Part shown: positions 11,664 to 52,200 of the stretch, in pieces | Position numbering within the stretch: position 1 is the stretch's first letter | Layout of the letters: every line of letters begins with the position of its first letter | Assembly (NCBI GenBank): GCA_029204225.1 | Contig: CM055097.1 | Span: 26,383,039-26,447,038, forward strand | Direction of reading: 5' to 3' | Length of the DNA stretch: 64,000 bases | Source of the DNA: Diphasiastrum complanatum | Lineage: Eukaryota; Streptophyta; Lycopodiopsida; Lycopodiales; Lycopodiaceae | Made by a program: the position numbers and the translations under genes | Notes under the pieces: generated by a model | Told to the model about the DNA's origin: nothing | Databases searched by the model: none | Seen by the model: only the letters and a program-made list of their open reading frames with translations

Positions 11664-12942
11664 CAGAGGTGCACTGGATCGCGATCTGCTGCATCCACGT
11701 TCTGGAACCACATTCCGGAGCGCTGGTGATCCGGGGCCCAGATCGCGGTCCCAGTTCCAAAAAATATGGATTTATTTGGCAAATTTTTTTTACAATGCTG
11801 TAGCGGCAGTGCTGCCTGCTAGTGAGGGCCTTGTCATCAGAGTTTCAGTGTCTCCTAGAAATTAGATGTTTCTTTAGTGCTGTCAAGATCAGGGAATTGC
11901 ACGCTCATTACTGCTGCCAGCATTGCAGTGTCCCTTACCGCTGTCCAGAAATCAGAAATTAAAATGCTTACTGCTACCCAAAAATCAGGGATTGATTGCT
12001 CTATTCTGCTGCCAAAATGTGGGATTTGCATGCTCTTTACTGCTGCCAAACATTTAGCATTGAATTCTCTCTTACTCTTACTGCTGTCTAAAAATCAGAG
12101 GTTAAATGCTCCTTATTGCTGCAAAACTCACGGATTTGCATGCTCTTAACTGGTGGAAAGCTGCGGAAGAGACCTTCAATCTGATACTTGCCCATCAATT
12201 ATTTTATTTTTTATTTTTATTAATTTTGTTTTAAAATTTGCATTCTGGGAAACCCCAATGGGAAATCCTGCATTGTGATCCGGAACGTGTGTATCTTTCA
12301 TGTCCTCTCTACCAAAGCTGCACGTTCTGATCTGGATCACAATCCGGGATTTTCCCATTAGGGTTTCCGGAATACAAATTCTTTTAATTTTTTATTCTTT
12401 TTGGTAGGCAATATGGGTATCAGATTAAAGGTCTCTTACCTGGTTTCCAGCACCAAAGAGCATGCAAATCCCTGAGCTTTTGCACCAATAAGGAGCGTTC
12501 ATTAGGAGACAATGCAATGCTAGATTTTTGGCAGTAGTAAAGAGCATGCAAATCCCTTATAGGCATCAGTAAAGAGCTTGCAAATCCCGCATTTTTTGCA
12601 GCAGTATAGAGCAATCAATCCCTGATTTTTGGGTAGCTGTGAATCTCTGATTTTTGGACAGCAGTAGGAGACACTGCAATGCTGATTTTTGGAAGCATGC
12701 AATTCCCTGATATTGACAGCAGTAAAGAAACATCTAAATTTTAATTTCTAGGAGACACTGAAATGCTGAGGCTGCACTGCCGCTGCAGCATCATAAAAAT
12801 GTTTGCAACTAGAGGGCTGCAGCATGTAAAAAATTTGCAAAAAAACTGCAATTTTTTTTGTGATCTGGGACCATGATTTGGGTCCTGGATCACCAGCATT
12901 CTGGAACGTGGATGCAGCCCATTGCGATCCACTGCATCTCTG
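11664..12942. mobile_element. 1.28-kb near-palindromic foldback element
   Basis: The two halves are reverse complements along almost their whole length. The left end CAGAGGTGCACTGGATCGC (11664) mirrors the right end at 12921-12942 (19 of the outer 22 positions). The arrays of CTGCTGCCAAAAATCAGGG-type units at 11880-12150 mirror those at 12430-12720. The inner GGAAACCC...GTGATCCGGAACGTG block (12240-12290) mirrors 12320-12375. The arms meet with only about 30 bp unpaired near 12290-12320. No coding frame is convincing. A non-autonomous DNA transposon arranged as an inverted dimer is the best reading. Its ends resemble the elements at 18895, 42335 and 49266. Confidence 0.75.
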
Positions 12943-13592
12943 AAATATACTATGCTGTAAAAGATTATAACAAAAAAATTTGAAATTTTCCTAAACCCTA
13001 AAACAGATTCTTCTATCTAAACTGGTTCTAATCAGAATGGCAATTCGTTATATTCGAGTGAACATTATTCGTTATATTCGAGTGAACATTATTCTATTCC
13101 AGAAGTATGTCTTAGGGTTGTTATGGAACTGTGGCCCCAATGAAGGAAACCTTTTTTGAAGTTACAGCCAAGAAAGATGATATATCGAAAAGAAGTTACA
13201 GCATAACCACCTCAGCGATTAATGAAATCTTTTTGTACCTTTCTATTGACAATTCAGTTCAATTCTGAATCCTTGGAGATTGCTTGTCATGTTACAGTAG
13301 AATTTTACGGAAACTTTTTGGATGCACCTGCAAATGAAATGACATCTCTGTAGAAAGCAGAGCCTTTAGGATATTGGTTCTGTCAGTATGAGGAAATTGG
13401 CTATCTAAAATAAGAGTTCGTGTGTTTCCGGCAGCATCACCATTCTTGCTGTTTCAATTTCTCAATTCAATGTTTCTGAAGTTCTCATCAGTATACAATC
13501 TCCCTATGTTACTTTCCTCATTGAGATTGCAAATCGGACTTTGTTTCTCTTAACACTTCTTAAATTCACTCAATCACGGCAGGAGGATAATG
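12943..13592. other. No recognised feature
   Basis: AT-rich sequence without an open frame of note. A direct repeat of about 23 bp (TTCGTTATATTCGAGTGAAC core, 13046-13093) is the only structure seen. Confidence 0.4.
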
Positions 13593-49200: not shown

Positions 49201-52200
49201 TTGAAAAAATGTATGTACATCTGCTAAAAATACTGAAGAAAATTAAATTTTAGAAAACTGGAAACCATAGTTGTCAGGAAACAGGAATGAGGAACATACA
49301 GACCCCAGGACCAGGAACGTTACTTGGGGAGGAATTGTCACATATCACATATAATCATTTTCTGAAAAATATATGTTTTTCAGGAAAAAGTTTGAGCACT
49401 CAAACTACATATGATATGTCTGTGTAGGGAAAAATAGGCTTAGTGAGCGGGTGAATTGGGCCACAAGGGACCAAAACATGGTCCCAAAACTTAAGTTGTA
49501 AGGGGAACCACTTGCGTGTGAAAAATTGGCAAAAATTTAGCTTGGCAATTTCATGTATTCTATGTTTGTGAAGTACATTTCACATGTGTGGAGCATGTTC
49601 CCATATGTGTATAATAGTTTATCATAGCTTTAGGGGTTTCATAAAGTTTTTATGTCAAGCTTCTTTGTGTAGAGTTGTCATAGGGCCAAAATTGGCATAG
49701 ATGGCAAATTGGCAAAATCCACATGTAAAGCCTCTATTGAGCCAAAAGTGAGCTATGATGCAATCTCGAGCTAGAGAGGCATATGAATAGGGTGTTGACA
49801 CTTGTAACAAAGTAATTTGATCACTGATGGAGTCAAAAGTCGGTTTTGGTCAAGGGGTCCAATAAGAATCAAGAGATCTCCAAGAGGGGCCCAATAGGAT
49901 CAAGGAGGCTATGATTAGGGGTCCAATAGCATGCAAGGAGGGATCTCCACAAGCTCTATATGTACTTCTCCTTATGATCATTATGCAAGTTGAGTTTTTG
50001 AGTCAATCTTTGTATGGTGAGACTTGCTTGTTCAATCTTCTCTCTCTACCCGAGTTGAATTAGCTCTATTCTCTCTCTACCCGAGGAGAGGAGCTTAACT
50101 TTACTTAGTTTTTTCAAGAAGCACTTCCTCTCATGTGTATGTACTTTGGTCATCAACAAATGCATCCATCTTTGCCTCTATGCCTTGGTTTTTTGATCTA
50201 GATCTTGGAAATCAATCTAGAATCCATCAACAAGTGCACAAGCTTGCTTAGGAGATCAATCACACACTTTAGGGCATTCCCAAACGTGTGAATTTCACAT
50301 TGCGAACAGTCGAGAATGCATTCCCCTTGCCATGGGAATATTTCCCCACGTTCCCTCATGTTCTTGAGTTGGAGGCCAAGTCGGAATGGGGCTCCCCTGT
50401 TCCCAAAGGGTGAGAATGCAGTCCTTGGCAACTATGTTAAAAACTCAATAGTTCTAACTTTTGATGGTCTACCAGCAAGTTATTAGTAGGATCCTCAAGC
50501 ACCCCTAAACCTTGACTCAACCTAGGCCGACAAGTTTCGAACATGCAATTCAGCCATTTGGCAATACTCAAACACATAGGCATGAAAGACGGGATTTGCT
50601 GACCATTAGACGACATGTCCCTCATGTATTAGACTAAGTGTCCCATAATCCCTTGACATATAAGCTCCTACTTTAGGAGGTCAGTCCACTAGACTAGATT
50701 TCAGTCCAATAGACTCTTTTGTAGAACTAATACATACTGATTAATTACCAGCACTGTGCTTTCGAAGTAGTGACCTTGTATTATCATTCTACAATCTTAC
50801 CACCACAAATTGGTGACCAAGCCATTCTGAAAGTGCATGTTTGCATCTCTAAACACAAAGGATCAAGGATGGATTAGCATACCACATTCCTTTCCTCCTC
50901 AAGCAACATCTTACATGATGTTAAAGTCTAGGTACTGCACACACAAACAGTGTTCAGTCTCCCACGTAGCATCACTGAGAGGTCTTCCATATCATGCAAC
51001 TGGGTACTCATGGGAAAAAGGTTTTCTTGTCAAAGAGAAAGAGTAATCATGTTTATCTTCTAAAGAAGGCATTGTATGCGCTTCAACTAGCTCCAAGGGC
51101 TTGGTACTTGTGCATCAATGAGTAGTTTACCCAAAGAAACTTCACACTAGGCTTCAGATTTATGACAGAAATGATCTTTTAGCTCTAGAAAGCTAGTTAT
51201 GCTGACTTGAGCACTAAGTATGATGAGTTCCTGAATAATCATTGTCCTTTAAATGAGGCCCACCTATTTTTAGATGATTTTTTAATATCATAACTCTAAG
51301 CTGACCAGCCCATATTCTTGTAATTTTATAATTAGGTTGCTCAGCTTCTTAGAGCTTGTTTTATGAAGTATTTTAGGTGTTCGAAAAAAATTTAAGTGGT
51401 TGCAGGACCTCAAGCATTCAATTACCCAAATGACAACGATCAAGTTGTGGGTCTTAAGGGCCCAATTAAGTCTTCATAGCCACAACTACCTATGACTACT
51501 TTCAGGTTCTTGCAATTTTCCATTCTTATCTGTGTCATAGAGACTTCTCAGCCATTATTGACCTATTTAAGACATATTGCATTTTAAATGACTAACACCA
51601 CATTTCTTTGAATTTATTAACTTTTTGACTATAATTAGATTTTAATACATGAAAGTTTTGTCATCATGTTGATGAATTCAAAGATGTTTATGTTTTGTAA
51701 AATGGGATAAGGGATGCTATTAGTCACATAATAATCATCATATGATTGTTTCCAAAGAAGTACTTTTGGATCCTTGAAAATAAACTTCTACTTGACCAAG
51801 TAAATTGGGTAATTAAGTGTAGGGGTTTAATGTAATGCATAACGTCAGTAGCTATAGAGTCAATGGTACTGGAAAATTCTAGAACTTTGAGATCCTAAAA
51901 TTCTTTTTAGCTTCACTAAGAGCATGTAGAAAGAGAGAAAAGTATGGAGGGGGATAGGATATGGAGAAATACCAAAAAACTTATTCCTCCATGTGAACCC
52001 TAGCTCTTCCATTGTACTAGTTTGAATTATTTTCCTGATTTAGCTATAGAAATAAGAAAAAAAGATTTGGCTCAACTTATCTTACACTTTAAAATCGAAC
52101 TTGCACACCTTAATATTTATAATTTAAAACATTAATGAAATCCATGTTTATTTCAATTTTCAAATAGTGACTCAAACATTGTTAAAATTCAGAGCTATAA

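Follow-up and report, generated by a model that had tools for sequence, protein, structure and literature searches.

What does a group of transposable elements have in common when their outer ends are constant and the sequence just inside those ends is not? The question is raised by a 64,000-nucleotide stretch of the Diphasiastrum complanatum genome (assembly GCA_029204225.1, contig CM055097.1, positions 26,383,039 to 26,447,038 of the forward strand), which is called the window below and numbered from its first base. An earlier note on this DNA had described five elements with terminal inverted repeats (TIRs), here named E1 (11664-12942), E2 (18895-19625), E3 (42335-42940), E4 (47978-48447) and E5 (49266-50436), as a non-autonomous group in which each member fills a shared outer end with its own self-complementary words. 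Genome-wide searches of the 1.74-Gb assembly argue that E2 and E3 are very probably non-autonomous hAT transposons whose subterminal recognition words turn over, and that the E4 family runs closely parallel to them. The picture of mostly non-autonomous elements that keep their ends while the zone next to those ends changes has held up, and the evidence for it consists of genomic copies, 8-base-pair (bp) target-site duplications, an empty site and a hAT-encoding copy.

CATAG/CAGAG ends are seen when the element ends are printed from the window, which bears out the shared outer end for the group apart from E5, where the relation amounts to a short end match. No open reading frame of at least 120 amino acids lies inside any of the five intervals, in agreement with the claim that none holds a convincing gene. 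An internal word said to be common to three elements, the 18-mer GCAATATGGGTATCAGAT, is indeed present in E1 (12408-12425, plus strand), E2 (18989-19006, plus strand) and E3 (42839-42856, minus strand, with one mismatch within the first 16 bases; match at 42841), and a fourth match in the window, at 252, lies outside the elements. With up to three mismatches allowed, these four matches compare with 0.47 expected, and none of 100 shuffles reached four. A search of the whole genome with this shared module, which had been proposed as a check, gave 7,430 matches at two mismatches or fewer (3,659 forward and 3,771 reverse), whereas the same 18-mer read backwards gave 63 (32 forward and 31 reverse).

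The module family was sampled at 50 of the first 51 places given, all exact 18-mer matches (one place near locus L048 was left out). In 20 of these 50 loci the module is enclosed by CATAG-type ends with an 8-bp duplication matching at 6 or more of 8 positions, 13 of them exactly; when the flanks were shifted by 11, 13, 17 or 23 bases, the same level was reached in 4 of 200 comparisons. The other 30 loci showed no CATAG-type end pair with a duplication. The duplicated sequence leans to RTTYRAAY. Because its CATAG-type ends are flanked by 8-bp duplications, the module family has the character of a TIR transposon whose insertions duplicate 8 bp of target site, and the duplications foreseen in the earlier note are thus present in the families of E2, E3 and E4 (see below for the latter two). 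A short TIR starting with CA and subterminal repeats are found in the module family (CATAGTTGCA-type tips and word arrays), as in hAT elements. Tips of the form CATAG/CAGAG and duplications of 8 bp do not fit the CACTA superfamily.

E2 itself, on the plus strand, is a non-autonomous hAT copy with ends CATAGTTGCAC and GAAACG words at both ends, and its module is 97% identical to that of locus L046. Its own duplication matches at 7 of 8 positions only after a one-base shift at the left end; it would read AGTTAAAC/AGTTGAAC if one C was lost there. A comparison of E2 with plasmid records gave no match. Empty sites were searched for the module copies among the fetched loci only, and none convincing was found there.

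The assignment to hAT comes from longer copies of the same family. hAT dimerisation domains are common in this genome (4,364 candidates, of which the best 150 were scored), and a tblastn comparison of hAT frames with the module loci revealed antisense hAT coding in L022, L024, L028 and L048, about 1.35-1.5 kb inside the module, with L040 as a weaker case. In the initial module-locus test, the right end had not been seen at any of these five loci. Autonomous copies were sought for two word types, GAATCG and GAAACG (described below), by extending five loci: L022, L028 and L048 from among those with hAT coding, and L010 and L029. The extended L028 (L028x) is an element of 5,103 bp with CATAGTTGCA at both tips, an exact duplication ATACAAAT and GAATCG words, 5 on the left and 9 on the right. 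L022x measures 4,965 bp and has the exact duplication GTTTGTCA; the extension of L048 (L048x) showed no right end. The two copies of about 5 kb lie on contig C1, are about 89-90% identical in DNA, and have the same module and CATAG-type tips. A Pfam scan that covered part of the listed frames of L028x, the one of the two copies scanned, identified DUF659 (E value 2.3e-24) and Dimer_Tnp_hAT (PF05699, E value 3.1e-7).

E2-type elements are non-autonomous hATs, because the copies of about 5 kb share their module, tips and duplications and L028x encodes hAT domains. The hAT membership of the module family is established through the GAATCG type; the putative assignment of the GAAACG type, including E2, rests on the shared module, tips and duplications. 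In its autonomous-size form, the family has elements of about 5 kb that combine this module with CATAG-type tips and GAATCG words. Longer copies of this kind would make a hAT transposase that excises and reinserts the short copies in trans, leaving the 8-bp duplication behind.

Two other associations of module and hAT coding were rejected as partners. The many tblastn matches of L053 come from a module-type miniature inverted-repeat transposable element (MITE) near a hAT domain, and the hAT domain of L081, near a module copy on C1, lies outside the element. The MITE at L052/L053 is 302 bp long, sits a few hundred bases from the hAT dimerisation domain, and has the duplication ATTGAAAT on both sides (measured in L052).

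E3 and E4 were followed through their own families, and matches over their full ranges confirmed the boundaries that had been proposed for them. E3 (42335-42940, minus strand as judged by the module) is a non-autonomous hAT-like element with ends CAGAGTTGCAG and both GGATCG and GGAACG words. Its family comprises 2,146 candidate places, and 21 of the 40 scored match bases 1-606, the window and contig C3761 included; among scored places, copies other than these two are 83-90% identical. E4 (47978-48447, plus strand) belongs to a separate family, with ends CATAGAA/TTCTATG, GAACCG words (ACGGTTCTGAGAACCGT) and no match to the module. Of 2,451 candidates, 40 were again scored; 8 match bases 1-470 in one piece (window and C3761 included) and many others match in two pieces. 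Copies that were full-length or nearly so, 10 and 13 of the 40 scored places respectively, were then chosen for a count of duplications. All 10 sampled full-length E3 copies have a duplication matching at 7 or more of 8 positions, counted without a shifted-flank control, and 11 of the 13 near full-length E4 copies reach at least 6 of 8, 10 of them exactly, against 1 of 104 with shifted flanks. Some of these places look like single insertions seen twice, namely L106 and L110 in the E3 family and the pairs L086/L094 and L087/L090 in the E4 family. By their tips and 8-bp duplications, and in E3 also by the module, both elements would fit hAT.

The L086/L094 pair also provides an empty site. Each of the two, found at separate places on contig C14, is inserted into another E4-family copy and shows an identical duplication; they are probably a single composite that was copied. 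Once joined, their flanks could be aligned over the junction with all 12 of the other E4-family sequences examined (the E4 of the window among them), in 5 cases with no gap. The empty site thus lies in relatives of the repeat that received the insertion, and its locus is a different one. An empty site was found in this way for one E4-type insertion, and no convincing one for the module copies among the fetched loci. Contig C3761 carries E3, E4 and E5 on one stretch at about 100% identity, and because of this it is probably a haplotype duplicate of window region 42335-50436.

The suggestion that the shared ends are a chance resemblance in AT-rich DNA has almost nothing left to recommend it, and for the families of E2, E3 and E4 it is refuted by copy numbers, duplications and the hAT-encoding copy. 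What it has in its favor comes from E5, whose relation to the others is the short end match, whose ends fold no better than shuffled sequence (z 0.04 and -1.2), and whose duplication matches at 5 of 8 positions. The filling of E5 had been misread. The element (no strand assigned) consists of a shell with CATAGTTG ends, some 380 bp in all, broken by a solo long terminal repeat (LTR) at 49517-50299 (no strand assigned), which makes up most of E5; this LTR is 783 bp long, begins with TG and ends with CA (TGTGAAAAATTG...GTGAATTTCACA), and is flanked by the 5-bp duplication TTGCG. In a genome search with the whole of E5, LTR relatives accounted for nearly all of the best 40 of 3,781 candidates.

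What, then, is the changing zone made of? The fillings are CpG-containing half-site words repeated in both orientations, as was seen by counting six-base half-sites in the outer 130 bases of each end and in the middle. GAAACG occurs in E2 4 times on the left, 4 times on the right and not at all in the middle; the corresponding counts are 7, 5 and 0 for GAACCG in E4 and 11, 9 and 0 for GAATCG in locus L013. E3 has 1 and 4 GGATCG at its ends, plus 2 GGAACG. The claim that each element carries its own word array inside its ends is thus correct for E2, E3 and E4; E1 has a single GGATCG at each end and nothing more, and E5 has none of the word arrays.

The words also sort by element. Three or more GAAACG or GAATCG half-sites are present in 41 of the 50 module loci, and the share of GAAACG among them is bimodal, with 14 loci between 0 and 0.1 and 17 at 0.8 or more; its dispersion is 139, whereas simulations averaged 41 and went no higher than 78. 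In 20 copies the left and right ends agree in their words (r 0.96, the same sign in 19 of 20), and none of 10,000 permutations gave so high a value. The word types differ from one another by one-base changes (GAAACG-GAATCG-GGATCG and GAAACG-GAACCG), at both ends in most copies.

Most probably, the CpG words clustered next to the tips are the sites at which the transposase binds the subterminal DNA. In published work, Ac transposase binds AAACGG hexamers near the Ac tips (PMC3260210), the Herves transposase binds a subterminal motif (PMC3143072), and for four proteins encoded by hATs the motif corresponds to sequence in the subterminal parts of the element that each comes from (PMC8097297). If the words of the present elements have this role, it is the recognition word that changes, tip and body staying as they are, presumably in co-evolution with the transposase. 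The words might instead be targets of a transposon-encoded or host factor that counters silencing or reads methylation (as VANC does), their turnover reflecting an arms race with silencing. In favor of this, all four main words (GAAACG, GAATCG, GGATCG and GAACCG) contain CpG; VANC targets are likewise short motifs in dense arrays, family-specific and changing together in Arabidopsis VANDALs (PMC5735166); and a second DNA-binding gene is possible, the frames of L028x having been scanned in part. We nevertheless regard this explanation as improbable, since the words adjoin the tips, the dominant word is nearly absent from the middles, and the hAT transposase sites of Ac and Herves cited above are subterminal too.

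Other hAT loci in the genome appear, by eye, to carry other CG words near similar tips. L082 has ends CAAGGTTGCA with GGTTCGAACC words, and L060, L071 and L076 have ends CAATGTTTGA with GAATCG and GAACCG words. On contig C4, a separate hAT of about 3.2 kb with AAACG-type words has the tips CAAGATTGC and CATGGTTGC and is flanked by an exact duplication, AGGGGTCT; its 566-amino-acid stop-to-stop frame contains DUF659 and Dimer_Tnp_hAT.

The earlier note had proposed that subterminal structure is kept while sequence turns over, and had asked for a comparison of folding with shuffled controls. Compared with dinucleotide shuffles, the ends of E1-E4 do fold better (z -2.0 to -10.2), those of E5 being the exception already given; in 20 genome copies, 32 of 40 ends fall below z -2, versus 2 of the 19 inner segments that served as controls (a copy shorter than 400 bp was left out of these). 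Such folding is what one would look for if the palindromic zones served in hairpins or small RNAs (a fold-back RNA, or escape from silencing) rather than in protein binding, and E1, a nearly full-length fold-back, is a further point for that idea. However, words that occur in either orientation produce such folding by themselves, and there is no special preservation of the dyads: 7 of 46 palindromes are hybrids of two words, against 8.2 expected within elements and 22.7 if all are pooled. A hairpin or small-RNA role is therefore most unlikely to be the explanation. The proposal of a kept structure is only partly right: what is kept is a CpG word in both orientations, and the matching of palindrome halves goes no further than composition.

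E1 (11664-12942, no strand assigned) had been taken for a TIR element with a filling, and that description needs correction. Its ends are CAGAGGTGCA/TGCATCTCTG, and the element is one long inverted repeat, with arms at about 11664-12300 and 12317-12942 that are inverted relative to each other, 83% identical over 570 aligned bases, and contain CCAAAAATCAGGG-like repeats. The module is mirrored imperfectly across the center of the element, at 12167-12187.

How the words came to differ was approached with trees of the 110-column module, from which the arrays were excluded. The first tree had 53 rows (the 50 loci and three window elements); on it the GAATCG type requires 5 changes and the GAAACG type 10, of which the well-supported branches force 3 in each case. 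The second, run after the first was seen but with word classes fixed before the first, had 48 rows after the long-branch rows L001, L007, L014, E1 and E3 were dropped; 10 of the 48, being mixed or unclassed, belonged to neither of the groups compared. It needs 4 changes per word type, and a single GAATCG clade (16 rows versus 22 GAAACG rows) is rejected by the approximately unbiased (AU) test (p 0.0016). Words and module tree are incongruent; since the GAATCG rows do not form a single clade, the words would have switched more than once, or arrays or ends and bodies would have been exchanged.

On the exchange alternative, a few old hAT families each have fixed ends of their own and trade bodies with one another through gene conversion or abortive gap repair, which would make the shared module a passenger. 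The rejection of a single GAATCG clade is expected on this explanation, and modules from different word classes are on average nearly as alike (identity 0.70) as modules of one class (0.75 and 0.79). It is less easily squared with the loci of mixed words (7 of 50, a further 4 having too few words to class) and with the GAATCG half-sites that GAAACG-type copies retain in recurrent contexts, each in up to three copies; mixed loci and recurrent half-sites therefore fit stepwise change on one scaffold. We consider the exchange of ends possible, though somewhat unlikely. The stepwise version, in which a single hAT lineage had its recognition word replaced several times by one-base steps, in most half-sites and at both ends, is put forward tentatively.

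Several observations weigh against the reading of these elements as non-autonomous hATs with changing recognition words. In the window itself, E1, E3, E4 and E5 have no clean duplication, their flanks being decayed; in a hand count at the nominal ends, E4 and E5 match at 5 of 8 positions and E3 and E1 at 3 of 8. The module loci are exact 18-mer matches, all from the first 36 Mb of contig C1. L022x has a right tip changed to CATATATGCA and few GAATCG words (1 left, 4 right), the 338-amino-acid N-terminal piece of L028x, where a hAT transposase would have its BED finger, gave no Pfam hit, and extending L010 and L029 by about 2 kb yielded no GAAACG-type autonomous copy. Agreement between left and right words is also expected from common descent, which contributes to it. 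Palindrome halves, in the 46 palindromes, are matched no more than the element's own composition predicts. Finally, the well-supported branches of the second tree alone force only 1 change, on an alignment of 110 columns.

The window contains coding sequence for an RCC1-repeat protein, copia-type gag pieces and reverse transcriptase pieces, a content that seems typical of plants, and nothing in the window matched Rfam at gathering thresholds. GA microsatellites at 974-1078, 4377-4519 and 14908-15022 are each followed by GCTTTATTAAT, as if the GA tract bordered the same kind of element at all three. Many short repeats built around words such as AAAAATTGCGGAA and TTTCTGCCA occupy 23500-28700, and at 61434-62068 a 300-base repeat is present twice, 98% identical, with starts 335 bases apart.

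Among known systems, Ac/Ds of maize is similar in its short TIRs, its CG-containing subterminal hexamers and its internally deleted or filled non-autonomous copies (PMC3260210); it differs in that here the hexamer itself, a putative binding site, varies among module-sharing elements of one genome. In the soybean CACTA elements (Tgmt* and Tgm1) and En/Spm, TIRs are conserved while subterminal motifs diverge among subfamilies of one species, and co-evolution with the DNA-binding protein was proposed (PMC2613891), but these belong to another superfamily (CACTA tips and a 3-bp duplication), and the one-base word steps and mixed copies are features of the present elements. The VANDAL/VANC system of Arabidopsis resembles them in having arrays of short motifs that evolve jointly and are distinct in related families (PMC5735166), although it is an anti-silencing system whose motifs, in that account, lie in noncoding regions and are not packed against the tips. 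The hAT-derived CGG-binding proteins show that hAT DNA-binding domains can have diverse specificity, often for CGG or CGC; they are mostly domesticated and from other lineages, and no array turnover appears in the available portion of that report (PMC8097297). Papers that contain sequence strings of the elements had, where seen, titles on other subjects, and neither GCAATATGGGTATCAG nor GAATCGCGATTC occurs in any of those listed; a text search of the literature found no publication that combines most of what was sought about the ends of transposons and the specificity of their transposases.

The kind of phenomenon is already known from these parallels in other transposons. What is added here is a dense series of one-base-step words in the hATs of one genome, together with mixed copies and a transposase-encoding form for one of the words. 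If the stepwise version is correct, such words would set apart subfamilies that are insulated from one another although they share tips and body, like a series of locks and keys. With thousands of related copies, four or more candidate words one base apart, and a hAT-encoding element of at least one type, the joint change of a transposase and its many dispersed binding sites becomes a directly testable question.

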